IMG/VR virus record: IMGVR_UViG_3300008050_007803
Location: 1 to 37,002 of that record
From: a virus
DNA length: 37,002 nt
Direction: 5' to 3' (one strand)
Shown: positions 2-26,214 of the stretch, piece after piece
Numbering within the stretch: position 1 is the first letter of the stretch
Layout: each line of letters begins with the position of its first letter
Notes under the pieces: generated by a model
What the model saw: only the letters and a program-made list of their open reading frames with translations
What the model was told of the DNA's origin: nothing
The model's database searches: none
Made by a program: the position numbers and the translations under genes

Positions 2-649
2 GACAGTGTTAGTTCAGATATGGGTACAAAAGCGCGCGCAATGAAGACATTAATGCAAACTTGTACAAATTTAGGGTCAGTTACACAAACCACTATCCTA
101 TGTACTAATCATGTCTATGATGACCCAACAGCTCTGTTTCCTTCTATTGAAAAAAATATGCCAGGTGGTAAATCATGCATTTATCTTCCATCAGTAACAG
201 TTCAACTAGCACGCAAGCCAATGAAATCAGATGGCGGTAAGACTGTTGATGGGGAATTGGCAGTTGGTCAGAAAAAATACGCTGGAATTATTATTAGAGC
301 CCTTACGCGTAAAAATAGATTTATTAAACAGTACCTTGAAGGTGAAATATACCTTTCATTTGCTTCTGGACTTGATCGCTACTATGGATTAGTTGATCTG
401 GCCGTTGGTGTTGGTGCAGTAGTTCAAACTGGAGCAACTTATCAGCTTGAAGATGGTACTAAGCTAGGCTATTATAAGAATTGGAGGAAGGATGTTAAAC
501 TTTGGGAAGAGACTATTCTTCCAAAACTTGAAGAACGAATTAAAGATGAGTGGTCTTATAGTAATAAAGAAGAAGAGCCACCTGATGAATTAGGTTTAGA
601 TGGTTTAGATGATTTAATTAATGAAAAAGAAACTAGTACTGACTCTTAG
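2..649 (+). CDS. uvsX: UvsX/RecA-like recombinase, 3' part
   Basis: This is the C-terminal part of a T4 UvsX-type recombinase, which forms ATP-dependent filaments on single-stranded DNA for strand exchange and recombination-dependent replication. The frame is open through the left edge. It begins with the end of a Walker B-like strand (DSVSSDMGTKARAMK), so the internal ATG at 20 is not the true start. Seen motifs are the loop TILCTNHVYDD, then PGGKSCIYLPSVTVQLARKP, matching the UvsX core after Walker B. The C-terminus is acidic (EEEPPDELGLDGLDDL), as is common in phage recombinases and a likely contact region for mediator or gp32-type partners. Walker A lies outside the window. Its end overlaps queC by 29 nt, so the two are probably cotranscribed. 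Confidence 0.88.
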   Translation, partial: DSVSSDMGTKARAMKTLMQTCTNLGSVTQTTILCTNHVYDDPTALFPSIEKNMPGGKSCIYLPSVTVQLARKPMKSDGGKTVDGELAVGQKKYAGIIIRALTRKNRFIKQYLEGEIYLSFASGLDRYYGLVDLAVGVGAVVQTGATYQLEDGTKLGYYKNWRKDVKLWEETILPKLEERIKDEWSYSNKEEEPPDELGLDGLDDLINEKETSTDS

Positions 650-1379
650 TGGGGGAATGGACTCATCTGTGCTGTTGTATATGGCACAAGATAGAGGCTA
701 TGATCATATACATACCATAACCTTTGACTATGGTCAAAGGCATAAACAAGAACTCGCTTGTGTTAAAAAACAAATTAATAATTTTAATAACATGTTTAGC
801 GGGTGGTTTAATTTAAAGATTACTAATAAGGTCTTAGATGTAAAGTATATTAAAGACATTGCGCCTACCTCATCTTTAACTAATAAAGATATTGATAATC
901 CTAATATTAGCGAGATGGCAGGTGATGCACAGCCTGTCTCATACGTACCGTTTCGGAATTTAATGTTTCTATCTATTTGCTCGTCATATGCTGAAAGTGT
1001 AGGTGCAGATACAGTATGGTATGGTGCTGCACAGGTTGATTCACTAGCTGGGTATTGGGACGGTAGTGAAGAGTTTGTTAATGTAGTTAATGAAGTAACA
1101 GATCTTAATAGAGAGAACAGAATTAACATTGAAGCACCGCTTCTTGACATGTCGAAGGCTGCAATTGTTAAAGAAGGAATTAGACTAGGAGTTACATATG
1201 GTGATACATGGACATGCTATTCGAATAGAGAAGATGGGCTAGCTGATGCCACAACTCCGTCAAGTAGTATGCGAATAACGGGGTTTATTGATGCTGGGTA
1301 TGAAGACCCTATTCAATATGTCCAACAGGAAAAGTTGGATGACCTATACAAAGAAAATAACTGCAAGGAGTGTGCTTAG
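621..1379 (+). CDS. queC: QueC-like 7-cyano-7-deazaguanine (preQ0) synthase with altered zinc site
   Basis: This is an ExsB/QueC-family PP-loop ATPase. The family converts 7-carboxy-7-deazaguanine to preQ0 using ATP and ammonia. Phages use preQ0 pathways to make 7-deazaguanine bases that shield their DNA from restriction. Visible motifs are the PP-loop SGGMDSS (residues 10-16), TFDYGQRH (34-41), VPFRNLMFLS (109-118), the GYWDG segment (144-148), ENRINIEAPLLDMSKA (165-180) and DTWTCY (195-200). Canonical QueC has three more zinc cysteines just after the TWxCY cysteine. Here residues 201-247 contain none, and Cys returns only at 248 and 251 at the extreme C-terminus (NCKECA). Length, 252 aa, is slightly above the usual 220-240. 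The start overlaps uvsX, and the stop overlaps the convergent minus-strand gene by 4 nt. No QueD, QueE, FolE or DpdA gene is in the window. Confidence 0.85.
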   Translation: MKKKLVLTLSGGMDSSVLLYMAQDRGYDHIHTITFDYGQRHKQELACVKKQINNFNNMFSGWFNLKITNKVLDVKYIKDIAPTSSLTNKDIDNPNISEMAGDAQPVSYVPFRNLMFLSICSSYAESVGADTVWYGAAQVDSLAGYWDGSEEFVNVVNEVTDLNRENRINIEAPLLDMSKAAIVKEGIRLGVTYGDTWTCYSNREDGLADATTPSSSMRITGFIDAGYEDPIQYVQQEKLDDLYKENNCKECA

Positions 1380-3290: not shown

Positions 3291-3953
3291 ATGTGCGCTA
3301 TTTTTGGATCGTTCGACAAAACAATGTTAGAGATTTTATACCAAGCTAATAAGGAGCGTGGTAATTTTGCTAGCAGCGTTGTATGCATATCAGATGATGA
3401 TCAATATATCTCTAAACATGAAGGTGATATAAATTTTGATAAGTTTAATTATGCTGGTAGGGAAAATATAGAATATCTTCTTGGGCATGTACAGGCACCT
3501 ACTTCCGCTAAAAGAACCTGGAACTACAACACATCTCACCCATTCGAATCTCTGACATGGCTGGTTAGTCATAATGGTGTTTTAACAAATGAGAAAAAAC
3601 TAAGAAGAAAACATACAAGATTTTTAGAAAATCCCGTTGATACAGCGGTAATAGTTGAACTATTAGAAAAATTTACTCAGGTAAATAAAAACCCAGTTAA
3701 TACCATAAAGCAAGTATTATCAATGTTAGAGGGGTCGTATGCTTTAAGTATGGTGCATTCTAATACTAACGATATCTATATAGCGAGAGTAGGGTCACTT
3801 CTTCACTATAATAATAAGGGCAACTACTCTACAATGATGGGATCCGGTTATAAAATATTACCTGAAGGAATTATAATGAAGTTAAATAAAAAAACAAAAC
3901 GATGGAATAAAGTAGGCACTTTTGAATCCAAGTCACCGTTTACATTTGTATGA
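3291..3953 (+). CDS. stand-alone class II glutamine amidotransferase
   Basis: This is an N-terminal-nucleophile (class II, GlmS/PurF-type) glutaminase domain, which releases ammonia from glutamine for a partner synthase. The start is MCAIFGSF, so Cys2 becomes the nucleophile after Met removal. Other family features are GHVQAPTS (65-72), SHNGVLTN (93-100, oxyanion Asn/Gly), VDTAVIVELL (116-125, Asp117 for the glutamine amino group) and LEGSYALSMV. The whole protein is only this domain of 220 aa, with no sugar-isomerase, phosphoribosyltransferase or synthetase domain, so the ammonia acceptor must be another protein. The Arg that binds the glutamine carboxylate in GlmS/PurF (GHxR) is Gln68 here. 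Its stop overlaps the next gene's start (ATGA), implying translational coupling to the glycosyltransferase. QueC, another ammonia user, is 1.9 kb upstream. Confidence 0.82.
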   Translation: MCAIFGSFDKTMLEILYQANKERGNFASSVVCISDDDQYISKHEGDINFDKFNYAGRENIEYLLGHVQAPTSAKRTWNYNTSHPFESLTWLVSHNGVLTNEKKLRRKHTRFLENPVDTAVIVELLEKFTQVNKNPVNTIKQVLSMLEGSYALSMVHSNTNDIYIARVGSLLHYNNKGNYSTMMGSGYKILPEGIIMKLNKKTKRWNKVGTFESKSPFTFV

Positions 3954-4609
3954 GTAAAACATTTATATTTTCTGCTACAGCAGGTAAAAAAGAAGACTCA
4001 ATGCTTTACAATACGTGTAAAGATGAAAATATCGACATCTTTATAAAAGAGTATAATAAAGAGTCTATACAAAAAACCTACAACAAGGCGATTGATTTTT
4101 CAATTAGGGAAGGAGTTAAAAACTTAGTATTAGTTCATGACGATGTAATACTCGAAGCTTTTTCTGAAAGAAGAATTGAAAGAAATTTTAAAAATTTTGA
4201 TCTAATTGGTGTAGCTGGCTGCAATCAGGTCAAGCTCGAAAAGCCAGTTCTCTGGCATTTAATGGGCGGTGGCTTCGACTCCGGTAATTTAGTAGGCGCA
4301 GTTGCCCACGGTACTGAAAATCAAAAAAATATGGGAGGGTTTGGATTTTATCCAAATAGAGCTATTTTAGTAGACGGAGTTTTTCTCGTAATTAAAAGAA
4401 AAGTATTTAAAAAAATTAGATTTGATGAAACCTGTCCTTCTAAATGGCATTTTTATGATCTTGATTACTCTATGCAGTGTCATAAAGCCGGCTTTAAAGT
4501 TGGAGTCGGCGACTTTATTGTAACTCATAAATCCCCCGGTCTTACTTCTTTTACTGAAGAATTTCAGAAGGGCGAAGATTGGTTTTTAGATAAGTGGAAA
4601 ACCGAATAA
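3950..4609 (+). CDS. glycosyltransferase, StrF-like GT-A domain
   Basis: This 219-residue protein looks like the single-domain glycosyltransferases of the StrF type (GT-A fold). Signature pieces are a strand followed by LVLVHDDVILE (about 60-69), where the acidic pair can act as the metal/nucleotide-sugar motif, then DLIGVAGCNQ, a Gly-rich middle (HLMGGGFDSGNLVG), and the C-terminal acceptor-side segment WHFYDLDYSMQCHKAGFKV with THKSPG. No membrane segment or signal peptide is visible, so it should act in the cytoplasm. The acceptor is unknown: modified DNA bases, a virion protein or a nucleotide sugar are all open. It starts within the amidotransferase stop codon (ATGA). This couples the two genes and suggests a shared pathway such as an amino-sugar or a modified nucleotide. 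Confidence 0.72.
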   Translation: MSKTFIFSATAGKKEDSMLYNTCKDENIDIFIKEYNKESIQKTYNKAIDFSIREGVKNLVLVHDDVILEAFSERRIERNFKNFDLIGVAGCNQVKLEKPVLWHLMGGGFDSGNLVGAVAHGTENQKNMGGFGFYPNRAILVDGVFLVIKRKVFKKIRFDETCPSKWHFYDLDYSMQCHKAGFKVGVGDFIVTHKSPGLTSFTEEFQKGEDWFLDKWKTE

Positions 4610-13257: not shown

Positions 13258-13491
13258 ATGGAAAAACATAAATTTAAATTAAAAGATGGTTCAACGAAAA
13301 CTATGGAATTTGATGAATTGGTTCGTTGGGCTTGCTTGGTAGAAGCACTGGAAGTAGTCGGGGGGAAGGAAGATATAGATATTGAAAGTAATAAATGGAT
13401 TAAACCATTAGCATTTCAAAAATATATTGATGAGCGATTCCACTCAATGAAGCACGATCTTAAAGTTGAAGCTACTCTAGGTAATTTATAA
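13258..13491 (+). CDS. small hypothetical protein
   Basis: This 77-residue protein is unrecognised. It starts with a basic strand pair (KHKFKLKDGSTKTMEF), followed by helical segments (ELVRWACLVEALEVVGG, FQKYIDERFHSMKHDLK). It is the last plus-strand gene in the window and meets the minus-strand block head-on, overlapping the glycosyltransferase gene's end by 6 nt. There is no Shine-Dalgarno, but a TATAAT lies 10 nt upstream. The size and pattern suit a small DNA- or protein-binding factor, but no function is claimed. Confidence 0.65.
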   Translation: MEKHKFKLKDGSTKTMEFDELVRWACLVEALEVVGGKEDIDIESNKWIKPLAFQKYIDERFHSMKHDLKVEATLGNL

Positions 13492-14313
13492 TCCTAGCTC
13501 TTCTTTCACAGTTTGGATATACTCACTTGACACTTTATCTTTAAACTTGTCAATAACTTCGGTGGTATCTTTTCCAATTTCTTGGAAACCAATCATATAA
13601 TTTCGGAACCGATCCTCTCTTGTTGGCTTAAACGGAGCTCCTAGTGGTCTTCCAAATCTATGTACCCATCTAAGAAACGGTAGGCATACTGATCGCCGAC
13701 CCGCGTTGCGGTATTTTTCATGAATATACCCTTCTTCACCCCCAAACCCTCTAAACTTTTTGTTAAAGCCTAACCAGCTATCTTTTCTACATGTAAAGAG
13801 TCCAAGACCTTGAGCTTGGATTTCAAATGGCTTCCCGTTAGGGTCATCACCCCTTTTATCTGATCCCCAGACGCCCCACATATCACTACCCCATTTATCT
13901 AGATCAAAATGAGTAGCTGTATTTTTCATATCGTCATATAGTAGAGGGCCTTGCAATAAATTACCTTTATCCTTTCCAGCATCATAATAATCTAAAAGCT
14001 TTTTTAAGCTCCCCGGGTCAATTAATACATGACAGTCCATTACTAATACGTATTCAGTATTCGCTAATCCAAATATTTTGTGTCTTAAAGAAGTTGCGGA
14101 AAATGCATCAAATTCAACATAAGTTAAAGGCTCTTTAATCCATTCAGCAAATTTACGTATCTCTCTTCCTTGTGGTGATTTTGGATTGTTATTAATAATA
14201 ACAAATTCTAGTCGATCTAAAATTTCTTTATGATACAATCTTAAAGACTGTATTGTAAAATAAAGTCCTTCATAGTCGTCATAAACACAGGTTCCAATAG
14301 TAAGTTTTCCCAC
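13486..14313 (-). CDS. GT2-family glycosyltransferase, polypeptide GalNAc-transferase-like
   Basis: This 275-residue GT-A glycosyltransferase has no membrane segment. The N-terminal nucleotide-sugar half shows TIGTCVYDDYEGLYFTIQSL (5-24) and VIINNNPK. The metal motif is DCH (93-95) in YVLVMDCHVLIDPGSLKKLL, a DxH as in eukaryotic polypeptide GalNAc-transferases rather than the usual bacterial DxD. The acceptor half has QAQGLGLFTCRKDSW (167-180) followed by FRGFGGEEGYIHEKYRNAG (188-205), matching the GalNAc-T pattern of GGLF, then a WGGEN-like acidic loop, then a basic and Gly turn. The start is GTG at 14313, because an ATG at 14315 is out of frame. It lies 11 nt downstream of the Pro/Thr-rich 1125-residue gene on the same strand, so the two are probably cotranscribed. 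Confidence 0.82.
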   Translation of the reverse strand: MGKLTIGTCVYDDYEGLYFTIQSLRLYHKEILDRLEFVIINNNPKSPQGREIRKFAEWIKEPLTYVEFDAFSATSLRHKIFGLANTEYVLVMDCHVLIDPGSLKKLLDYYDAGKDKGNLLQGPLLYDDMKNTATHFDLDKWGSDMWGVWGSDKRGDDPNGKPFEIQAQGLGLFTCRKDSWLGFNKKFRGFGGEEGYIHEKYRNAGRRSVCLPFLRWVHRFGRPLGAPFKPTREDRFRNYMIGFQEIGKDTTEVIDKFKDKVSSEYIQTVKEELGL

Positions 14314-14324
14314 ATTATTAATTA

Positions 14325-17300
14325 CTAAAATTGCAAATTATTGCAATCCGGATCTTCGGGACATATCGTTGTAGTTGTAGTCGTTGGAGCCGGGGTAGTA
14401 GTCGTCGTGGTAGTAGTCGTCGTCGTGGTCGTAGTTATTATTTGTTCTTCTATTAAGAAAGGTACCTGCAGCGGTAGGATCGGCGCCGGGTATATAAACA
14501 CCGGGTCCTCCGGTTCCGGTTCCGGTTGCGGCGGATCCGGCGGATCCGGCGGATCCGGCGGCTGCGGCAGTGGCGGTTCAACAATTATAGTCGGTGGCAC
14601 CCTGGTTGGAGGAACAGTACATGGGGGCGGTGGAGTTGTGTAGGGCGGCGTCGTATAAGGCGGCGTCGTATAAGGCGGCGTCGTATAAGGCGGAGTTGTG
14701 TACGGTGGTGGAGTTGTGTAAGGTGGTGGAGTTGTGTACGGTGGTGTTGTAGGATCATCGTATATTTTAAAATCACCAGACGGTCCACCGTTCGTATAAC
14801 CACCCGGCCAATTAGACCCGGGTAAATCATTAGTATTCTCTAGACCGCTGGGTGTATCAATGACCTCTTCACGCGTGCTGGGATCTGTGACATCATCGTC
14901 CTCCTCCTCTAAATACGGATCAACAAAGACGTCTTTTTTAAGAAGAGGGTCGAGTCCACCGGAGTCAATGTCAATGATGGGACCTTCTTTGGTTTGGGTT
15001 GTATCATCCGTTTCCTCGATCTTTGTGCGAGGATCAGTAGGATCGAGGCCACCAGGGTCAATGATGGGACCTTCACTTCCTTCCCCGGCATTTGGATCCC
15101 ATGGACCGGCCGCCGACATCCGCCAGCCAGATGGCAGCTCAAACGGGTCACTTCCTTCCCCGGCATTTGGATCATATGGGCCAGCCGCTGACATCACCCA
15201 ACCGGGTGGCAGAATAGGATCAGCAACCTGATCAGGTTGGTACGTTATTGGTTTTGAAGCTGATATTGCTTTATCAATATCAACTGTCTGCAAAACATAA
15301 CTAGGCGACCCGGCATTATGGCTAAGGCGCTCCATTGCCGCATTAATCTCATTTTGAGTATCGGGGTTCCCATAAAAAGGTCCACCGCCGGTGGTTGTAT
15401 GAGTCTCAACTAAAATAGGTGTGTTATTAGTGTATATAAATGACGGAGCACTACTATCACCCCTTTCCAATAATTCTTGGAAACTACTCTCTGGTATAGG
15501 TAGAGCAATGCTTACAGTTTCAGGATTTGCTCCGCGCTCTGACCGGCCACGGTCGAATGTCATTACTCTTGGAATTGATTTTCTTTCCGCATCAACTGTA
15601 ACAACATATGAATCCTGTAAAATATAATTATAATCCGTACGTGGTTCAGGAACGGGGTAAATAGCAGTGTTTTCAACCGGTGAATCAAAAATTCCGACAC
15701 TTATATCCAGACTGCGGTCGCCAATCTTGATTCTTTCAACAATATTTCTAGTTACTCTATTTCCATCTTTATCTATAAAATTTACAACGCCATCGGCACT
15801 ATCACCCGGATACCGTACGTCCCAATGCTTGGACATTACGAAGTGAATTGGAGACACCATGGTTATTGATTTTTCTGTCGCGGCTCTCCAATTATTCGGA
15901 TTAAAACCAACTCCACGTTCACTTATACCTGATATATCCAATTTACCGGCAATTGGTAAGTTAGATACTAATAACCTGTTTATGAGTTTTTTAGTTTCAG
16001 ACTCTGGTTCTGGACTTTCTCTTTGCTGTTGTACAGTTAAAGTGAATATCCGTGTTAGATATACTTGTATATCTTCCAATAACCACTCTGACAACATTCC
16101 GCTGGGGTCGTCCTCCACTCCACTGTTAATATCTGTAAGTCTTTGCTGATCAGCTTGTAGTCTTTGAGTGAGTTCCTCCAAACTTAAAGTTGGTAATATA
16201 CTGTCTCTGAAACTCCTCCTCGCCTCCAACCGTCTTTGGTTTGCAGCATTTAAAAGCTCTTGCCGAGTCGTTTCATTTTGCTCACTTTCAGCTTCCTGTC
16301 GTTCTCTTTCTATTCTAGCTTCTTCAGCTATAGCTGCCTTACTCGCGGCGACCGCAGCCGCCTCTTCCTGTAACTGCCTTAATCTAGCCTGTTCTAGCGA
16401 TTTTTGTTCAGCTTCATAAGCAGCCGCCTTCCTAGCTGCCACTTCAGCGTCACGTATTGCATCGGAAGTCGCTTCACCGGCTTTTGATAATCTACCGGCA
16501 GTGGTTGGCTTATCCGGTGTAGCCGCTGTATATAGCCTCCTACCTTGGGTGATCTGCTCCTCTGCTTTAGTTGCTTGCGCTGCTTGTGCAGTTGCTTCTG
16601 CATCTGCCTGCGAGCGTGCCGCTTCTGCTTCCGCTTTTGCTGCCTCAGCAGCCGCGAGCGCCTCTGCCGCGACCTCTGCCGCGGCCTGAGCTATGCTTTC
16701 CGCTTTTGCCTGTGCTGCTGCATTTGCTGCGGCTCGAGCCGCGGTCTGAGCCGCAGATTCCGCTGCTGTACGTTCCGCTTGCGCAGCCGCGGCATCTACC
16801 GCGGCCTGAGCTGCTAATTCTGCCGCTTCTGCTTCTGCCTGCGCAGATGCTTCCGCTTTTGCTGCAGCATCTGCTGCCCTCACCGCTTCCTCCTCCTGTT
16901 GTCGAAGTTGATCAACCTGTTCTTGCGAGATTCTAAATTCGTCTTGAGGGTTAGGTATATTTTGTGTTATCCTTTGTGATACAGGCTTACCTTCAACAAA
17001 TTGCTGTAACGAAATGGTAACATCCATACTACCGTCTTCAGCAACTTGATCTGCAATAAGTGTTAACCCATCAGCATTTATATTTACCCATGGGGTGGGT
17101 AACCCCCATACAGAAGCAGGTGTAGTACCACTAGCACCGTCCCAAAGCTCTTCTTTAGTTTGATAATCCTCAATAAAGATCTCAACCTCACCATCAAGCT
17201 CTCTAGATACTTGTACATAATCTACATTAACAGTACCTGTTGTGTTTTTAAAAGAGTTTGGAGCTCCACCACCGCCCAGTTGAGGGTAAGCGACAACAGT

Positions 17301-17702
17301 CACACCAACATCTATTAGTCCAACGTCCGGGCTGCCTAAATTTGAAGCCGCAGGCTCTACCGCGGTAGTTGGCTGATTAGGATCCGTATCCTCTGTGTCC
17401 GCGGTTGATGGTCCCGTAACGACCGGAACGACCGGATCAATTGGAGACACCGCACCTGGAGACACCGCACCTGGATTACAAAGCGCTGGGTCAGGTGGCA
17501 CCTCATATGGGCCAGCCGCTGACATCCGGATCTCAGGCTGCACCTTATATGGCCCGGCTGCTGACATCCGCCAGCCGGGTGGCAGCTCCGGTTCACTTCC
17601 TTCCCCGGCATATGGATCATATGGCCCGGCCGCTGACATCAGCCAGCCAGGTGGCAGCTCCGGGTCACCGCCATTCACGGAATATGGATCATCTATTGGC
17701 AT
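14325..17702 (-). CDS. multidomain virion-type protein: repeats, Ala-rich coiled coil, trypsin-like domain, Pro/Thr tail
   Basis: This is a 1125-residue mosaic. Residues 1-70 hold three copies of a PPGWxMSAAGPY motif. Residues 125-250 form a beta-rich domain. Residues 255-500 are an Ala/Glu/Gln-rich helical region, probably coiled coil. Residues 585-815 look like a chymotrypsin-fold serine peptidase, with SPIHFVMSKHW (His620), SLDISVGIFD (Asp666) and RGDSSAPSF (Ser750), spaced 46 and 84 residues apart much as in trypsin, plus the later THTTTGGGP. Two more MSAAGP repeats follow (837-868), then an acidic linker. Residues 985-1060 are PPYTT and PPD repeats. Residues 1090-1112 are 14 Thr, PAP and 6 Thr, and the protein ends with two Cys. 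No signal peptide or membrane helix is seen. The DNA is visibly GC-richer than its neighbours. It overlaps the upstream gene by 1 nt (TAATG). A tail-associated or exposed fibre-like role is inferred from position. Confidence 0.82.
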   Translation of the reverse strand: MPIDDPYSVNGGDPELPPGWLMSAAGPYDPYAGEGSEPELPPGWRMSAAGPYKVQPEIRMSAAGPYEVPPDPALCNPGAVSPGAVSPIDPVVPVVTGPSTADTEDTDPNQPTTAVEPAASNLGSPDVGLIDVGVTVVAYPQLGGGGAPNSFKNTTGTVNVDYVQVSRELDGEVEIFIEDYQTKEELWDGASGTTPASVWGLPTPWVNINADGLTLIADQVAEDGSMDVTISLQQFVEGKPVSQRITQNIPNPQDEFRISQEQVDQLRQQEEEAVRAADAAAKAEASAQAEAEAAELAAQAAVDAAAAQAERTAAESAAQTAARAAANAAAQAKAESIAQAAAEVAAEALAAAEAAKAEAEAARSQADAEATAQAAQATKAEEQITQGRRLYTAATPDKPTTAGRLSKAGEATSDAIRDAEVAARKAAAYEAEQKSLEQARLRQLQEEAAAVAASKAAIAEEARIERERQEAESEQNETTRQELLNAANQRRLEARRSFRDSILPTLSLEELTQRLQADQQRLTDINSGVEDDPSGMLSEWLLEDIQVYLTRIFTLTVQQQRESPEPESETKKLINRLLVSNLPIAGKLDISGISERGVGFNPNNWRAATEKSITMVSPIHFVMSKHWDVRYPGDSADGVVNFIDKDGNRVTRNIVERIKIGDRSLDISVGIFDSPVENTAIYPVPEPRTDYNYILQDSYVVTVDAERKSIPRVMTFDRGRSERGANPETVSIALPIPESSFQELLERGDSSAPSFIYTNNTPILVETHTTTGGGPFYGNPDTQNEINAAMERLSHNAGSPSYVLQTVDIDKAISASKPITYQPDQVADPILPPGWVMSAAGPYDPNAGEGSDPFELPSGWRMSAAGPWDPNAGEGSEGPIIDPGGLDPTDPRTKIEETDDTTQTKEGPIIDIDSGGLDPLLKKDVFVDPYLEEEDDDVTDPSTREEVIDTPSGLENTNDLPGSNWPGGYTNGGPSGDFKIYDDPTTPPYTTPPPYTTPPPYTTPPYTTPPYTTPPYTTPPYTTPPPPCTVPPTRVPPTIIVEPPLPQPPDPPDPPDPPQPEPEPEDPVFIYPAPILPLQVPFLIEEQIITTTTTTTTTTTTTTPAPTTTTTTICPEDPDCNNLQF
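14644..14757. repeat. 15-bp tandem repeat encoding PPYTT
   Basis: Three perfect copies of a 15-bp unit (GGCGGCGTCGTATAA; 14644-14658, 14659-14673, 14674-14688) are followed by diverged 15-18-bp copies (GGTGGTGGAGTTGTGTA type). On the minus strand they encode the (P)PPYTT repeats at residues 985-1025 of the large protein. A shorter 9-bp repeat (GGCGGATCC, three copies near 14530-14556) encodes the PPD repeats. Confidence 0.85.
15074..15218. repeat. 75-bp imperfect direct repeat (MSAAGP motif, C-terminal pair)
   Basis: Two copies start at 15074 and 15149 (shared start CACTTCCTTCCCCGGCAT). They encode the fourth and fifth GWxMSAAGPxDPNAGEGS motifs after the peptidase-like domain. The same unit recurs at the other end of the gene. 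Confidence 0.8.
17505..17670. repeat. MSAAGP-motif repeats at the gene's 5' end
   Basis: Three copies of the same coding motif occur here, one starting at 17594 with CACTTCCTTCCCCGGCAT as in the distal pair and two shorter ones. They lie about 2.4 kb from the copies at 15074-15218, so homologous recombination between them could delete the coiled coil and the peptidase-like domain. Confidence 0.75.
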
Positions 17703-19038: not shown

Positions 19039-20697
19039 CTAGTTCCATTCAAACACTACAATTCCAGTGGTAGGTACAGGCCCGGATGGTTTTTTACTAT
19101 GTGATCCTTGACCACCGCCATATGCTGGACTGTTACCGTAAAAACCTGAACCACCCACTCCTTCTTCTTCGCCACTATCGTCTGTATCTACATGACCGAC
19201 GCCACCTACTAACGATATTGTTTCTGTTGGTAAATAAAGACTGTCAGCAATAACCGGTGTAGGTGCAGTAGTTGAATTGTACAAACCACCTTTAGCTCTA
19301 ACTAATGGCGCTGTCGGATATCCGCCGGGTTCGTATATATAACTAGACTTTCCACTAGTAAACCCTACCGGTGGAGCACCTACAACAACTGGGAATTGTG
19401 TACCTGGAGGTGCAGAGAGATAGCCAATTGCTGTTGATCCAGCATTACCACTTCTGCCTTTTCCAGGAGAGCCAGATCCAGTTACATAAAACTTAACGTA
19501 CGAAATGCCATTTGGCATTGTAAATGTATGTGTTACACCTTCTGCATTAAAAATTCGAATTCCGGGCTGAGGTCTTGTTATTTGTATTGTACCGCTAAGT
19601 GGGTTAAAAGAAGCATCAGTTTTATTTTCCGTTACACCTGATCCTGATGTAATAGTCGCAGATAGGTTTTTCCCGACAGTTAATGTAGGGCTAGTTACAC
19701 CTCCAAAGGCTTTAATAATAAACGACATTCCTATAGCAGAAACACCAGGGCTGCTTGAATGAGCTGTTGTTACCCCTACTAATGTACTGTTAGCAGGCGA
19801 TGATCCCTCCATCCATCCATATAATGCAGTACTACTCAGATTTGGAAGAGTAAATGTATTGGCAGAAAAATCTCTTCCATATTTGCCGCCTGTTGCAGTA
19901 AGAAGTTCTGAATACGTTACAGCATCAACAGCCTGCCCATTACAATTTAACCAACCATACGGCGCAGCTGATATCGGACACGCATACGGCATAATAGTTC
20001 CAATTGGAACCAAAGCCGCTGTAGTTGGAGCTACCGGTGAATATACTATTTGAGGTACTTGCCAAGCAAGTTGAGCCTGCCCTGCGCCATCCGTTGAACT
20101 GTAACCTAGGAATGTTTTAGCTTGCGGTGATGTTGCTGGAAAAGTATAATCGATTGAGTTAACTTTTAACTTTGATGGTAACGAAAGATAACTGGTAAGA
20201 CCTGAGTCCCTTTGAATTATACCGTCTATGCTAATTCTAGAACTTAATGCTACCTTATTAGACCCATCAAGAGTTAATGAGCTTCCTAATGCATTAGTAG
20301 ATATATTTCCTGCGGATAATGTACCAACAGTAATTTGATTAGCCGCGTTAATACTAATTGTTGTATCTCCGGCGCTTATTAAATTCGATACTGTTACCCA
20401 GTCTGAAGCTGCAGCTCCTGTACCGGTAACACATACTTTTATTTCATGGTTATCTGAATCATAACCATAGTCTCCAGTTAATACAGGTGCTAAAGTAGTT
20501 AAATTAGCTGCTCGCCCGGCCCACTTGTTTCCAACAATTACCCCACCTTTTGTTGTACCATCACCGACAAATAATCTCACCGTATCAGTCGTCATCCCAA
20601 GCTCACCAGTCTCGAGGGTAATTTGTTGTCGATCATAATTAGTCCCTCTCCTAACAAGGAGCTTTAACAAGGTATTTTCTAAAATTTCTATGGCCAT
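19039..20697 (-). CDS. tail fibre protein with phage tail-collar domain (paralogue 1)
   Basis: This 552-residue virion protein has three visible parts. The N-terminus (1-60) carries LLVRRGTNYDRQQITLETGELG and TVRLFVGDGTTKGG, a small attachment-type module frequent at the start of phage fibres. The middle contains a tail-collar domain (231-290): VPIGTIMPYACPISAAPYGW, LNCNGQAV, then FTLPNLSS. The C-terminus is Gly- and Ser-rich and may hold the tip (GGVGHVDTDDSGEEEGVGGSG, YGGGQGSHSKKPSG). It is a paralogue of the next upstream gene (20710-22257), sharing the N-terminal and collar modules while the rest differs. CTAAATA lies 9 nt before the ATG. Its role is likely host attachment. Confidence 0.82.
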   Translation of the reverse strand: MAIEILENTLLKLLVRRGTNYDRQQITLETGELGMTTDTVRLFVGDGTTKGGVIVGNKWAGRAANLTTLAPVLTGDYGYDSDNHEIKVCVTGTGAAASDWVTVSNLISAGDTTISINAANQITVGTLSAGNISTNALGSSLTLDGSNKVALSSRISIDGIIQRDSGLTSYLSLPSKLKVNSIDYTFPATSPQAKTFLGYSSTDGAGQAQLAWQVPQIVYSPVAPTTAALVPIGTIMPYACPISAAPYGWLNCNGQAVDAVTYSELLTATGGKYGRDFSANTFTLPNLSSTALYGWMEGSSPANSTLVGVTTAHSSSPGVSAIGMSFIIKAFGGVTSPTLTVGKNLSATITSGSGVTENKTDASFNPLSGTIQITRPQPGIRIFNAEGVTHTFTMPNGISYVKFYVTGSGSPGKGRSGNAGSTAIGYLSAPPGTQFPVVVGAPPVGFTSGKSSYIYEPGGYPTAPLVRAKGGLYNSTTAPTPVIADSLYLPTETISLVGGVGHVDTDDSGEEEGVGGSGFYGNSPAYGGGQGSHSKKPSGPVPTTGIVVFEWN

Positions 20698-20706
20698 ATG
20701 TTTTAA

Positions 20707-20713
20707 TATTTAG
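20707..20713 (-). promoter_or_regulatory. late-type motif CTAAATA
   Basis: Minus-strand CTAAATA lies 9 nt before the ATG at 20697, overlapping the stop codon of the upstream fibre gene. Confidence 0.4.
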
Positions 20714-22257
20714 TAGCTAAAAACAGGTATTGCAAATCTATCAAACGTTTCAGTACTCTCTTCACTTCGTACGTCGCCGGATAACGCCATTGTAATAAAT
20801 CCTGCAGAACTTAATTTAATATTATTTCCGGCTGAAGTTAGTCCTTCACATATTTGCTGTGAATATTTACCACCGAAATTATTTTCAACCTGGTTAGGAG
20901 CTCCATTAAAGATATTTAAAACAGGATCTTCAGCGTATTTTATAATAAAGTTAACACCTGAAGCACTTAAAGTTGTGCCTGGTGTTGGACCAGATAGACT
21001 ACCATCAGTAGCACTTAAATATAAGGTTTGTGTACCGGTTGTAATAGCGCCGTTAGCACCATATAATAAAACATCACCACCGGTGAGGTTTGGTACTTTA
21101 AAGTCGGTCATATTTGCACCGCCGTAAGTAGTTCCGATCTTATCAAATAATTGTCTATATTCCGGTCGAGCTGTTGCGTTAAGACTGTGTCCGTTGCATA
21201 ATAAATACCCAGCTGGGGGGAGTGTAAACGCTTGTGCATGTGGTAGTATCGAACCGATCGGAACACCGTCACCCGCTCCACTACCTGAAAGACCGGTAGC
21301 AGTAATGACATCAAATACAGAGCTTTTAATTTCAGTAATTAATCCTTTGTTCGTGTCTAAGAAAGGCATCTCCATAAAGGCAGATGTAGCTCCATTTAAT
21401 GTTACTGTACCGTTGTCATTTGTAATAAGTGCACCATCAACTGACTGTAATACAGCTTCTAATTTATTTGTTGCTGTGTTTACTTGTAATCCGCCGCCTA
21501 ACCTACCATCTGTTGTTGAGGTACCATCTCCAGGTCCGGCCCATGATGAAATACTAACATTCATCGCCCCAACATCTTTGAGCTCTAATTTATTATTAGT
21601 ATCAAATTTAAATTGCTGCTCATTAATACTTAAAGCTAATTCTTCACCATCCCCACCCTTTAATCCGCTAGATGCTGGAAATAAGGCCTTTATCTCTCTT
21701 TTAGTTATAGAGTTTTGCTTTGGTGTTAATCTCCCGTCTTTACCAGGCGCGCTAGATAACTGTAAATAATCAGTGTTAAATGCAACATTTACATTACCAT
21801 TAACAGCAGATAATAGAGCATCCCCAAAAAACGTTCCACCTAAATATTCTGCATCAATTGCGTTTTTTGATAGCGTAAGCTTATTATTGGTATCAAATTC
21901 GAGGAATGCACCATCTGGAACTGATCCTATATAACTCCACCCTGATAAAGTGTTTGTATATGCCCTCCCGGTTGCCGATGCGCCGGAGAGTATATATAGC
22001 TTGTTTTTCGCGTAACCAATATCACCAACCTGTAAATATGGTGACTCACTAACCGCTGGGCCTAAACTAGCATCAGCAGCAAAAGGACCCACATTTACGT
22101 TACCAGCTACCTTACCACCGTAAGTAGCCCCATCACCGACAAATAGTCTTTTTGAATCTAGGGTATAACCTACTTCACCTTGATCCAATACGATCTCCTT
22201 TCGTTGGTCATCAGTACCTCTCCTAACTTTTAATTTTACTATAGTAATATTTGCCAT
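20710..22257 (-). CDS. tail fibre protein with phage tail-collar domain (paralogue 2)
   Basis: This 515-residue protein has the same architecture as the 19039-20697 product. The N-terminal module is KLKVRRGTDDQRKEIVLDQG with KRLFVGDGATYGGKVAGN. A beta-repeat shaft follows with recurring FDTNNKLxL segments (about 120-130 and 218-227). The collar domain is at 333-390 (VPIGSILPHAQAF, GYLLCNGHSLN, DFKVPNLTGG). The C-terminus (about 425-515) is different from the paralogue and ends ETFDRFAIPVFSY. It starts 4 nt after the upstream gene, with a degenerate ATAAAAT next to the ATG. Duplication followed by tip divergence is the likely history. Confidence 0.82.
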   Translation of the reverse strand: MANITIVKLKVRRGTDDQRKEIVLDQGEVGYTLDSKRLFVGDGATYGGKVAGNVNVGPFAADASLGPAVSESPYLQVGDIGYAKNKLYILSGASATGRAYTNTLSGWSYIGSVPDGAFLEFDTNNKLTLSKNAIDAEYLGGTFFGDALLSAVNGNVNVAFNTDYLQLSSAPGKDGRLTPKQNSITKREIKALFPASSGLKGGDGEELALSINEQQFKFDTNNKLELKDVGAMNVSISSWAGPGDGTSTTDGRLGGGLQVNTATNKLEAVLQSVDGALITNDNGTVTLNGATSAFMEMPFLDTNKGLITEIKSSVFDVITATGLSGSGAGDGVPIGSILPHAQAFTLPPAGYLLCNGHSLNATARPEYRQLFDKIGTTYGGANMTDFKVPNLTGGDVLLYGANGAITTGTQTLYLSATDGSLSGPTPGTTLSASGVNFIIKYAEDPVLNIFNGAPNQVENNFGGKYSQQICEGLTSAGNNIKLSSAGFITMALSGDVRSEESTETFDRFAIPVFSY

Positions 22258-22261
22258 AATT

Positions 22262-23344
22262 TTATGCTATTCGTCGCCATACGTACGCACCATACGACGG
22301 CGGAATGTTATTGTGTTTTGTTCCATCACCTACAGCTGTAGACGGCTTAATATTAGATGCTCCTTCATTTACAACTACTTGTTCATCTCCTTTTGTTACC
22401 ACTGTTGCTGAACTTTCATTAGTAGCTAATTCCCCAGCTGTAGCCTGGCCTAAATCAACAGCACCTAACTCCCTACAAAATGTATATGCATCAAAATCCC
22501 ATTGCGCTCCAGCCCCTCCAGGAAATTCACTTGCCACAAACCGTGTTTCACCGTTCCATAATCCAATCATTTCCTTATAACCATAATCCGGATTTTCTAG
22601 GTACGCGGCCCTTTGAATTGCAGAATAAGTAGCAGCAGATCCTAGTAAGAAATTAAGATCTAATGTTCTTCTTATAACATCCTGTGGGTCGCTAGGGTTA
22701 TTTGTTCTGTTTCCAAAATCGTTATTCCAATTCCATCCACTAGCAGCTCCAAGTTGATTTCTTCGCCTCTGCTGCTGTGCCCATGCTTGTGTTGAATTTG
22801 TTGTACCAGCGCCAGTAGCAACAAAAACTTGCCCGTTACCTACATTAGAACCGGTCGCGACAAAAACATCATCAGCTCCAACATTAGTGTCGTGCCTATG
22901 CGGCGGTAAGTTTGCAATAGTAAGTTCTGTCATATACTCACCAGCTAGATTTCCAGATTCTTCTGTGTTTTCGTAATCAGTACAAAATTTTCTAAAATCG
23001 TTATTTTTATCCGTAAAATCTCCAACACCTACTAAAAATCTACCCTGTGCAATTTGCTCCCAAGTAGTCCCTGCTATTCTTGTTTGTGGGTTAACGTTAT
23101 CTAGAGTTAATTGTATACACCCGACAGGAAAAAATGCTGTTAACCATTCTGTAGGGTTTTCAGCAAACCCTTCCGGGTATATGTAATTATTAATTACTAC
23201 TCTATTACCACTTAATTGTAACCCGGTAGAATTACCAGCTCCATCAAACACTTGATTTAACGAGTCTCCTAGCTCTGACCCACTTAAATGGAGCAAAGAA
23301 GTATAAAAATCAGATATAAATTGATTTGTTAAACTCTCCGGCAT
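22262..23344 (-). CDS. short tail fibre / fibre-tip protein
   Basis: This 360-residue protein is related to the N-terminal 420 residues of the next gene upstream (23377-26214). Shared features are an N-terminal helix with FISDFYTSLLHLSGSEL, then QVFDGAGNSTGLQLS, RVVINNYIYPEGF, FFPVGCIQLT, IAGTTWEQIAQGRFLVGVG, the histidine motif LPPHRHDT (147-153), and a C-terminal KHNNIPPSYGAYVWRRI. The HxH motif after a Leu-Pro is typical of metal-binding collar/receptor-binding domains such as those in T4 gp12-like short fibres. The IPPxxxxYxWRR ending is also typical of such tips. ATAAATA lies 8 nt before the ATG. Confidence 0.8.
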   Translation of the reverse strand: MPESLTNQFISDFYTSLLHLSGSELGDSLNQVFDGAGNSTGLQLSGNRVVINNYIYPEGFAENPTEWLTAFFPVGCIQLTLDNVNPQTRIAGTTWEQIAQGRFLVGVGDFTDKNNDFRKFCTDYENTEESGNLAGEYMTELTIANLPPHRHDTNVGADDVFVATGSNVGNGQVFVATGAGTTNSTQAWAQQQRRRNQLGAASGWNWNNDFGNRTNNPSDPQDVIRRTLDLNFLLGSAATYSAIQRAAYLENPDYGYKEMIGLWNGETRFVASEFPGGAGAQWDFDAYTFCRELGAVDLGQATAGELATNESSATVVTKGDEQVVVNEGASNIKPSTAVGDGTKHNNIPPSYGAYVWRRIA

Positions 23345-23352
23345 ATTACTAT

Positions 23353-23359
23353 TATTTAT
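23353..23359 (-). promoter_or_regulatory. late-type motif CATAAATA
   Basis: Minus-strand ATAAATA lies 8 nt before the ATG at 23344, in a 32-nt intergenic gap. Confidence 0.6.
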
Positions 23360-23376
23360 GTCACAATTTGAAAATA

Positions 23377-26214
23377 CTATCCAATGTTGACATTTCCTTC
23401 CGTTTGACCGTATATTATACCACCAACAATTCTAACACCACTACCGCCTCTAACTCTTATTGAATAACCGCCTTTGCCGCCTTTATAAGTATCCCCGGAT
23501 TGCGTTGTAGACCCGCCTGGCGCGCCCCAACCGCCGCCACCTGCACTAAATCTATTATACCAGCGACGGTTTGCGATTGAAGGGTAGCCCGATCCAGACC
23601 TATTTGTTGTTTGTACAGGGTATTTTTGAAAAACACCAGGTAGGCTTCCAGATCCACCTCTAACGAGTCCAGATCTATGATTATAGCCATCCCATCCCGT
23701 GGGTGATACATATGAAATGCCGTTATATATTAAATCGCTTCCACCACCCGGTTTATTAATTCGAGCGGCGACATAAGGTAAACCTGGCGCGCCACCTACT
23801 ATGCCGTTTGCTCTCCAGTGAGGCCCTACATGAAACCGCGGCCCGCGGCCGAAGAAATTGCCATATTTTCTATTTGACGTTAGCGTATACCCAGAGAGCC
23901 ACCCGTAGTATGGCTCACTACGATTATAAGCTGTAATATATGTTTCAATACAACGTCTACTCAGGCGTCTTCCAGTACATGCTATATCTACCGATCCATT
24001 TTCACCTGGAGGTATATTACTCCACGCCGGCCCGCTTTCACGACCTTCTTTTAAATTACCACTTAAATCTAGTGCACCAAATTCAGCACCAAAAATACCG
24101 CCTGTCCCTCCACCATATGCTGTAGGTGTTAGTATGCGACCCCCACCGCCTCCAGTGCCTTGAGGATTTACCCCTCTCCACTCCCTACCACCAGCTCCGG
24201 AGCCACCAGCTTCACCACCAATTCCAGGTAATAGTACGTAAAGTGGTCCCCACCCAACAGTAACAATATCACCAGCTCGTTTAAATTGTTGTAAAGAATG
24301 CGCACTAACAACTGGGCTAAAGAAACGACCAGCGCCGCCGGGTTCACCCGGAGCGCCGCCTGCGCCACCGCCGGCCGTAGTTGGTGCATTGACCTCTTTC
24401 CATCTATCAACAACACCTAAATGCCCATCACCATCGTTAGTATAAAGAGATCGACCTATACCGTGGATTGGGCTAGTACCGCCCCAGCCTCCACCGGCCC
24501 CTCCTCCTCCACCAGACTTATCTCCATCATATGCGCTTGCTCCGCCTCCTCCACCACCACTTATACCACCTTGTGTGTTGTCAATTATAATTTCAGAATT
24601 ACCAGTAACCAGTATAGCATCTCCACCATCTTGTCCAGATCGATTAATACTCCAATAGCTACCTCCATTACCACCTCTACCCATAATGAACCCTTTATTT
24701 ATTAACTCTAAACCACCAGGAAAATGATCTACGATCATTGCTGGTACCTTATCGTCACTTGGGTCGTCTGAATATATATAAACACCATTATCGATAATTA
24801 CTCTACATTTAGACTGCCCATCCCACCCGTTATCTGTAGCCCACTTATTTAAATTAAATACCTTATTTTTAGTAGATATTTTGTTACTAGAAATAGTTAA
24901 CTGATATGGTAGATTATCACCCGGTCTTTGGTCTGGTGATAAATTATCATGATAATTAAGAGGTACACGTTTCCAAAAGTAAACCGGGAAATTAGGTGGT
25001 ATATTATTATGTCTTACAGATTGACCAGTAGTTGTCGATTGTACAACTTTTGAACTAGGTACTAAACCGTAATATAAATTCTCACCGGCTACTGCTTGCC
25101 CTACCGTGGCGTTTAACTCTTTTAATCGGTTAACCCCATCAAGAGCTTTAGCTGCCTCATCCAGTCCTAATATATCGATAATAAAATCACGCGCTTTAAT
25201 TAATTCTCTATCCGGAAACCTACCTGGATGGACTCTATCTGAGGATCTTGGGTCATAAAAAGACCGGTCTATGTAGTATTCTACGCCATTGTATTCCCAT
25301 TTTACACCAACCGGTCTAGGACTAGATCCAATAAATTTACCAGACACATTTAAAATACCACCCCACCCTGGGCCTCCAGCGGCCGGTGGAGCCCATCCTG
25401 CTAAAGTTTGATTTCCAAACCTAGGATTAAAATCAGCATCAGTATATACTTTACCGGTTTTATGATTTTCTCTAATTATAAAATCTCTGTAGTGTTCAGT
25501 ATCACCGTATGCAGTATTGTATTGAAACGCTTCAATTACATTACTATCTAAGTACCGCTGGTCATCTGTTACTAGCTGCTGCGGGTTTAAAGTGTCACCA
25601 AAATAAAATATAAATGCTACATTCGTTCCTTCGCCCTGACTTTGCTCTGGTACTGCCTCTGTTTTAATATCAGTTGTGTGAGTATGCGTAGGTAGGTCTT
25701 CAGCATCAACACCAGCTCTAAATTCACCAGCTAGATCTCCGTTTTCTAATCCTGCACCTGTTCTTTCTTTATTACCAGCAGTAAAAGTAAAACTATTATT
25801 ATTTTTATCAGTACCGGTTCCTACACCAACAGGAAATAACCCTTGTGACTCTAAAACCCACTTTGTTCCTGCTATTTTAATTCCAGGGTTTTTAAAATCA
25901 GTAGTTAGGATTATACTATTAATTGGAAAAAAAGCATCTAACCACTCTTTTTGATATGACCAACCTTCAGGTTTGATATAGTTATTCACTACAACCCTAT
26001 CACCGAGAGAGCTTAAAGATAGACCAGTTGTGCCCCCGGCGCCATCATATATTTGAGCTACACCAGGCTCTGGTGTAAACACATTATAAGGACCTGCTGT
26101 GGACCATAGCTCTGTTACAGTATTAGTTAACCAAGAAGCAATACTACCACCACTTACATGTAAAAGTGATGTGTATTGATCTGCTATACGTTGTTGTGAA
26201 AGACTGTCCGACAT
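23377..26214 (-). CDS. large fibre-tip protein fused to a glycine-rich adhesin-like domain
   Basis: This 945-residue protein has two parts. Residues 1-420 repeat the whole plan of the 22262-23344 product: AQIYDGAGGTTGLSLS, RVVVNNYIKPEGW, IAGTKWVLESQGLFPVG, LPTHTHTT (174-181) and the tip ending HNNIPPNFPVYFWKRV. Instead of stopping there, it continues with a connecting domain (about 420-510) and a very Gly-rich C-terminal domain (about 515-945) with many short runs such as MGRGGNGGSYW, GGAGGGWGG and GGKGGYSIRV. Glycine-rich repeat blocks of this sort form the polyglycine-II receptor-binding domain of T2/S16 gp38-type adhesins, so this is a candidate receptor-binding protein. ATAAATA lies 7 nt before the ATG. 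Confidence 0.82.
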   Translation of the reverse strand: MSDSLSQQRIADQYTSLLHVSGGSIASWLTNTVTELWSTAGPYNVFTPEPGVAQIYDGAGGTTGLSLSSLGDRVVVNNYIKPEGWSYQKEWLDAFFPINSIILTTDFKNPGIKIAGTKWVLESQGLFPVGVGTGTDKNNNSFTFTAGNKERTGAGLENGDLAGEFRAGVDAEDLPTHTHTTDIKTEAVPEQSQGEGTNVAFIFYFGDTLNPQQLVTDDQRYLDSNVIEAFQYNTAYGDTEHYRDFIIRENHKTGKVYTDADFNPRFGNQTLAGWAPPAAGGPGWGGILNVSGKFIGSSPRPVGVKWEYNGVEYYIDRSFYDPRSSDRVHPGRFPDRELIKARDFIIDILGLDEAAKALDGVNRLKELNATVGQAVAGENLYYGLVPSSKVVQSTTTGQSVRHNNIPPNFPVYFWKRVPLNYHDNLSPDQRPGDNLPYQLTISSNKISTKNKVFNLNKWATDNGWDGQSKCRVIIDNGVYIYSDDPSDDKVPAMIVDHFPGGLELINKGFIMGRGGNGGSYWSINRSGQDGGDAILVTGNSEIIIDNTQGGISGGGGGGASAYDGDKSGGGGGAGGGWGGTSPIHGIGRSLYTNDGDGHLGVVDRWKEVNAPTTAGGGAGGAPGEPGGAGRFFSPVVSAHSLQQFKRAGDIVTVGWGPLYVLLPGIGGEAGGSGAGGREWRGVNPQGTGGGGGRILTPTAYGGGTGGIFGAEFGALDLSGNLKEGRESGPAWSNIPPGENGSVDIACTGRRLSRRCIETYITAYNRSEPYYGWLSGYTLTSNRKYGNFFGRGPRFHVGPHWRANGIVGGAPGLPYVAARINKPGGGSDLIYNGISYVSPTGWDGYNHRSGLVRGGSGSLPGVFQKYPVQTTNRSGSGYPSIANRRWYNRFSAGGGGWGAPGGSTTQSGDTYKGGKGGYSIRVRGGSGVRIVGGIIYGQTEGNVNIG

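Follow-up and report, generated by a model that had tools for sequence, protein, structure and literature searches.

Does a virus of prokaryotes glycosylate one of its own proteins? The question is raised by two adjoining genes in a 37,002-nucleotide stretch of viral DNA (IMG/VR record IMGVR_UViG_3300008050_007803, positions 1 to 37,002; hereafter the window). One encodes a GT-A glycosyltransferase, P0002, and the other a protein with a threonine/proline-rich (Thr/Pro-rich) C-terminus, P0001. Mucin-type O-glycosylation is regarded as a eukaryotic trait. The original prediction held that P0002 resembles polypeptide N-acetylgalactosamine (GalNAc) transferases and that the phage uses it to glycosylate P0001. 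This proposal is supported by the fold of the enzyme, by the recurrence of Thr/Pro tracts next to its relatives in phages and bacteria, by their scarcity farther away and by their absence from the loci of a control glycosyltransferase. We consider it very probable that P0002 acts on the neighbouring Thr tract of P0001.

Fold and motifs of the enzyme

An AlphaFold AF2 model of P0002, built from a 40-sequence alignment (pLDDT 93.2, pTM 0.91), was compared with the PDB using Foldseek. All 50 of the 50 best listed matches were polypeptide GalNAc-transferases of family GT27 (best E 1.1e-13), with TM-scores normalised by query of 0.63-0.74 and identities of 12-15%. The comparison with GT27 and other GT2 folds, which had been put forward as a check on the original prediction, was therefore favourable, GT27 being the best structural match.

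The motifs originally read from the sequence fared unequally: DCH (residues 93-95) and FGGEE are present as described, while the reported "GGLF" reads G-L-G-L-F (169-173). The invariant H218, which resembles a third metal ligand, had been overlooked. In an alignment of 40 phage relatives D93-x-H95, G189-F-G-G-x-E194 and W-x-H218-x-F are conserved (G192 in at least 90%, the other named residues in all), and the DxH, GFGGxE and C-terminal His motifs are all conserved in 28 bacterial relatives. The equivalence of these residues with those of GT27 is one of motif, not of superposition. A survey of GT-A enzymes found that DxD has become DxH in GT27 and GT60, both of them polypeptide O-glycosyltransferases (PMC7185993).

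The sole Pfam match of P0002 was Glycos_transf_2 (E 2.8e-8), which all 40 non-redundant phage relatives also matched; no ricin-type C-terminal lectin domain was detected in its 275 residues. A PDB search with the single P0002 sequence returned nothing. P0002 was itself unmatched in PHROG, where 5/40 and 2/40 members of the phage set weakly matched two GtrB-like families (E 6e-4 or weaker). P0002 thus shares with GT27 enzymes (GALNT1, 2, 4, 7, 10 and 12; Toxoplasma GalNAc-T3) the GT-A fold, the DxH motif, a GGE-type motif, the C-terminal His and, as predicted, a Thr/Pro-rich acceptor, but differs in its small size, its residence in a prokaryotic virus and its low identity. Because the lectin domain and a sequence-profile match are both lacking, we do not file P0002 as GT27; the model suggests that it works like a polypeptide O-glycosyltransferase.

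Confidence in GalNAc as the transferred sugar is lower than confidence in action on the tract. A variant that is compatible with the favoured explanation, and that we rate as a serious possibility falling somewhat short of even, is a protein O-glycosyltransferase that uses N-acetylglucosamine (GlcNAc) or another hexose, in the manner of GT60. The GT60 polypeptide alpha-GlcNAc transferases have in common with P0002 the DxH motif (PMC7185993), the O-glycosylation of Ser/Thr in polypeptides that is predicted for P0002, and structural neighbours among phage proteins. In BFVD, several of the top-ranking matches were phage "Glycosyltransferase, GlcNAc" proteins, and at one viral locus with a Thr tract and no relative of P0002 the neighbour is a GT60-type (PF11397) GlcNAc-type glycosyltransferase. 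Neither P0002 nor any of its 40 relatives matched PF11397, however, and the listed PDB matches were all GT27, though this library may hold no GT60 structure.

Thr/Pro tracts and a C-terminal tag beside the enzyme

The C-terminus of P0001 had been described as (P)PPYTT repeats followed by a Thr14-PAP-Thr6 tract; both were confirmed in the translation, the repeats spanning residues 987-1023, and the coordinates bear out that the enzyme gene lies 11 nucleotides downstream on the same strand. A TAATTA-like spacer (window about 14314-14327) separates the acceptor stop codon from the enzyme start, as it does in most of the phages, and might serve in regulation or recombination. The 14-Thr run is written in mixed codons (ACT, ACG and ACC, with ACA in the run after it), which rules out a DNA microsatellite as its origin and indicates that the run is maintained at the protein level. 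The features of the P0001-family C-terminus are likewise conserved in relatives.

To define linkage, 80 viral loci were grouped into 40 clusters at 85% enzyme identity, of which 39 were informative (at one locus, L056, the upstream sequence is missing), and a tract was called where a 30-residue window held at least 18 T, P or S including at least 9 T. The phage enzymes are 54-83% identical to P0002. Automatic calling of open reading frames (ORFs) found the gene next upstream of the enzyme to contain a tract in 28/39 clusters; two negatives (L047, L071) were ORF-calling errors, giving a corrected count of 30/39. A tract gene was present up to 1.5 kb to either side of the enzyme in 33 of the 39 clusters, compared with 3/317 genes more than three positions away and 3/118 for the three downstream positions pooled. 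Fisher's test of adjacency gives a p of about 1e-29, a descriptive value only, as the clusters share ancestry. In five contigs (G005, G006, G008, G011 and G013; 45-202 kb), of which G005 and G013 were read whole and the others in part, the stretch read held a single tract gene, adjoining the enzyme. A further contig (G004) has three tract genes, the closest about 4.4 kb from the enzyme. In contrast, another glycosyltransferase of the same phages, unrelated to P0002 and used as a control, had no tract ORF across the 50 loci fetched.

The pairing recurs in bacteria. A genome scan gave 94 bacterial relatives (80 loci retained; 42-52% identity) from Proteobacteria, Desulfobacterota, Acidobacteria, Actinobacteria, Bacteroidota and other groups. 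They are mostly larger than P0002, and some of those examined carry extra domains (Glyco_transf_25, HprK-related, PqqD, TPR or sulfotransferase-like). Among the loci is that of the cultured Rhodococcus erythropolis NBRC 15567 (L155), which has the pair. A tract ORF lies within 1.5 kb of the enzyme at 37/80 loci. Over phages and bacteria together, the co-occurrence search proposed with the original prediction showed that homologues mostly keep a Thr-rich neighbour. Tract ORFs were 4.7 times denser near the bacterial enzyme (41 in 309 kb) than farther out (17 in about 599 kb), with p about 1e-8. An RR motif resembling that of twin-arginine translocation (Tat) signals precedes the tract in 32 of the 35 neighbour proteins examined, and many of these Tat-like neighbours (L083-L161) share LPxKWxKPVVxxVxxPAHAxxS, followed by the Thr/Pro tract. 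Tat exports folded proteins, which makes cytoplasmic glycosylation before export plausible. Nothing argues more strongly for Thr/Pro-rich proteins as the substrates of this enzyme family than this second, bacterial setting, in which the acceptors are unrelated to those of phages.

The tract proteins adjoining the phage enzyme differ in their bodies but share a C-terminal tag, C-x(2-9)-C-[N/K]-x-L-x-[F/Y/W]-stop, which P0001 also carries and which the original prediction had missed. Across 35 distinct tags, Leu is at position -3 in all and Cys at -6 in 34; 26 of the tags finish in F, 8 in Y and 1 in W. The tag occurs in 29/33 tract-linked clusters versus 0/60 complete tract ORFs from Thr loci without the enzyme. 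Among about 2,000 other ORFs of the enzyme loci a single one has it, and that ORF sits between two tract genes. Where tract genes stand in tandem each is tagged (L040, L044, L047, L052, L054, L059, L063), the smallest acceptors (104-135 residues, such as those of L047 with 104 and L053 with 135) consist of little beyond tract and tag, and three loci (L308-L310) retain the tag although no window of their proteins reaches the tract threshold. Taken together, these comparisons indicate that the tag follows the enzyme more than it follows the tract.

The tag uses synonymous codons and its Cys-Cys spacing varies by whole codons; a DNA element was rejected on these grounds, and conservation is at the protein level. 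In the enzyme tree the tag is confined to one phage subclade (29/35 rows; support 99/96), with several losses, and the basal phage clade lacks it. A DNA scan for Thr codons plus the tag gave 6 chance matches, its pattern, with TAA and TTT fixed, being too narrow to be informative. On contig G006 (locus L057; 14963-15445) a tract gene lies on the other strand, convergent to the enzyme gene, and its product ends in PLNF, perhaps a degenerate tag.

Proposed pathway and alternatives

Under the favoured explanation, P0002 would act in the cytoplasm on the Thr/Pro tract of P0001, adding the initial sugar to its Thr residues and perhaps to Ser. P0001, a putative tail-associated protein, would be glycosylated ahead of virion assembly, and its tract would then form a mucin-like stalk or brush. 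The tag would mark the acceptor, serving either to dock the enzyme or to anchor the protein in the virion; confidence in any particular role is lower than for GalNAc. In bacteria, relatives of the enzyme would modify Thr/Pro-rich proteins in the cytoplasm, which would then be exported by Tat.

In related phages, glycosyltransferases encoded just downstream of the enzyme may lengthen the glycan. Such genes match Glyco_transf_6 in L016 (E 3e-22), a Glyco_transf_29 sialyltransferase in L025 (E 1e-9), Glycos_transf_2 in L013 and, under the curated cut-off, L019, a polysialyltransferase-like family in L024 (under the cut-off) and glycosyltransferase plus methyltransferase domains in L021. These GT6-, GT29- and GT2-type genes would fit a pathway of O-glycan extension, with other glycans as possible further targets.

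We lean slightly towards a broader proposal: that one enzyme family carries out a so far unrecognised, prokaryote-wide mucin-type O-glycosylation, in bacteria on proteins modified in the cytoplasm and exported by Tat, and in aquatic phages on tagged mini-mucins and tail proteins with GT6/GT29-type extension. These phages, and the bacteria too, are likely to produce mucin-like glycoproteins of their own. If so, a compact enzyme of the GT27 fold, tied to Thr/Pro-rich acceptors, would bear on the origin of mucin-type O-glycosylation and would offer a small cytoplasmic enzyme for producing mucin-like proteins in bacteria. It would also give a concrete role to some aquatic-phage glycosyltransferases often ascribed to lipopolysaccharide (LPS), and the tag would let acceptors be predicted from sequence.

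A role in LPS has a precedent in pelagimyophages (PMC7029224), which like the source phage are T4-like and aquatic and encode glycosyltransferases beside tail-fibre genes. Those enzymes are mainly GT8, were assigned to host LPS and are connected in that study with no Thr-rich acceptor. P0002 might similarly be an LPS or O-antigen transferase that alters the host envelope, located near tail genes as part of a host-recognition region; its weak profile matches to polysaccharide enzymes would agree with this, and the downstream glycosyltransferases of relatives could act on LPS. We nevertheless judge such a role improbable, as it leaves unexplained the tract neighbours in most phage clusters, the shared tag and the Thr/Pro-rich, Tat-exported neighbours in bacteria. 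In addition, the closest solved folds are polypeptide transferases, and the other glycosyltransferase of the window shows no linkage to tracts.

Several observations weigh against action on the tract by a GT27-like enzyme. Profile searches of PDB chains listed no GT27 chain at E<=10; the profiles reached TarP and chondroitin synthase instead. This reach agrees with a GT-A phylogeny in which chondroitin polymerases, GT7, GT27 and GT60 form one clade (PMC7185993). The phage enzymes form a single clade (support 100/100); adjacency is therefore in part a matter of descent, and the p-values treat the clusters as more independent than they are. Six of the 39 clusters (L028, L031, L036, L064, L073, L078) have no tract within 1.5 kb of the enzyme, and no tract gene was found in three contigs (G001-G003; 24-81 kb, possibly incomplete). 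These loci may reflect either enzymes with other acceptors or incomplete contigs. In L031 and L036 the enzyme directly follows a gene resembling the 299-residue tail gene upstream of P0001, and the divergent L073 enzyme, as a query against viral contigs, recovered only itself and two near copies.

In the reverse direction, among 80 viral loci (L163-L242) picked solely for at least 12 consecutive Thr codons, the enzyme was present in only 3, and most phage Thr tracts thus occur without it. Even 3/80 is an enrichment, given the rarity of the enzyme (a scan of 2.9 million contigs gave at least 365 stretches). Tracts being far commoner than the enzyme, other proteins or enzymes must explain most of them, and the neighbours of enzyme-less tracts are mostly not glycosyltransferases, so that the presence of a Thr tract is by itself no predictor of a nearby glycosyltransferase. 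The widespread enzyme-less tracts, the single clade and the six tract-less clusters would suit a merely physical linkage, with tracts as flexible linkers of a kind common in the tails of aquatic phages and the enzyme as a neighbour by inheritance that does not act on them, but this is very unlikely, because linkage holds down to 54% enzyme identity while the acceptor bodies change fully, down to the smallest proteins, because bacterial chromosomes show the pairing too, with unrelated acceptors, and because enzyme-less tract proteins lack the tag.

Other known systems resemble the proposed pair in part. Mycobacteriophages glycosylate structural proteins of the virion, with glycans at the C-termini (Freeman et al. 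2023, cited in PMC12619734); in the window, too, a glycosyltransferase gene is linked to that of a putatively structural protein. The mycobacteriophage acceptors are capsid and tail-tube subunits, and no Thr/Pro tract with a C-terminal tag is apparent in the portions of that account available to us (PMC12619734). Bacterial cassettes associated with HPr-rel-A and PqqD (NCBIfam TIGR04352, TIGR04353) have a parallel in some bacterial relatives, where the enzyme or the acceptor carries HprK-related or PqqD domains; the NCBIfam scores fall under the curated cut-offs, and the phage proteins are without such domains. A limited search of the open literature, covering little subscription literature, met no description of the enzyme/tract pairing or of the tag.

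Genomic setting of the pair

P0001 and then P0002 are the final two minus-strand genes of a tail gene cluster, beyond which plus-strand genes begin (Table 1). Right-handed beta-helix domains were found in P0001 relatives of L020, L023 and L026 (L020 just under the curated cut-off); tailspikes carry such domains. The tail gene cluster and the beta-helix bodies of the relatives make a virion or tail role for P0001 likely. Its N-terminal domain was considered for a diagnostic fold, which was rejected: it is a generic beta sandwich whose PDB match is not diagnostic. PPGWxMSAAGPY-type segments, absent from relatives, are repeated near the P0001 N-terminus and again ahead of the Pro-rich C-terminal part.

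Table 1. Positions in the window of the enzyme, its candidate acceptor and neighbouring features.
Feature	Position	Strand	Remarks
P0002, GT-A glycosyltransferase, polypeptide GalNAc-transferase-like	13486..14313	-	275 aa, GTG start; proposed protein O-glycosyltransferase
H218 in W-x-H-R-F	13660..13662	-	invariant; putative counterpart of the GT27 C-terminal metal-binding His
FGGEE motif, residues 190-194	13732..13746	-	putative counterpart, by motif, of WGGEN in GT27
DxH motif, D93-C94-H95	14029..14037	-	D93 and H95 invariant in alignments of 40 phage and 28 bacterial relatives
P0001, candidate acceptor	14325..17702	-	1125 aa; contains repeats, a beta domain, a probably helical Ala-rich region and a Pro/Thr-rich C-terminus
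C-terminal tag of P0001, CPEDPDCNNLQF-stop	14328..14363	-	matches C-x(2-9)-C-[N/K]-x-L-x-[F/Y/W]-stop
Thr14-PAP-Thr6 tract, residues 1090-1112	14367..14435	-	Thr14 at 1090-1103, Thr6 at 1107-1112
YPAPILPL motif preceding the Thr tract	14469..14492	-	conserved in P0001 family (alignment)
(P)PPYTT repeat array, residues 987-1023	14634..14744	-	7 copies (translation)
N-terminal all-beta domain of P0001, residues 113-258	16929..17366	-	Ig-like sandwich; AF2 pLDDT 88.5, best PDB E 1.7e-3
299-aa gene upstream of P0001	17702..18601	-	relatives directly upstream of enzyme in L031 and L036, where tract gene is missing (by eye: size, place, C-terminus)
Tail/receptor-binding gene cluster	19039..26214	-	domains Collar, Mtd_N, Gp10_C, Gp38-like; upstream of P0001, same strand
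Second glycosyltransferase (Glyco_tranf_2_5), control	3950..4609	+	before DnaB-like helicase gene

Among the products of the window is a DnaB-like helicase with matches to T4-gp41-like proteins from named phages, and further genes resemble, by eye, T4-like replication genes. The source phage is apparently T4-like and marine, the marine origin being suggested by the kinds of phage matched. No relative of the enzyme was found among the named phages of INPHARED, hence no cultured phage can be cited. A large tail-cluster protein (window 34332-36581, minus strand) contains PKD domains and had no tblastn match among named phages. Finally, a QueC gene (window 621-1379, plus strand; Pfam E 1.5e-52) and a gene for a class-II glutamine amidotransferase domain protein (window 3291-3953, plus strand) point to possible deazaguanine modification of DNA in the source phage.

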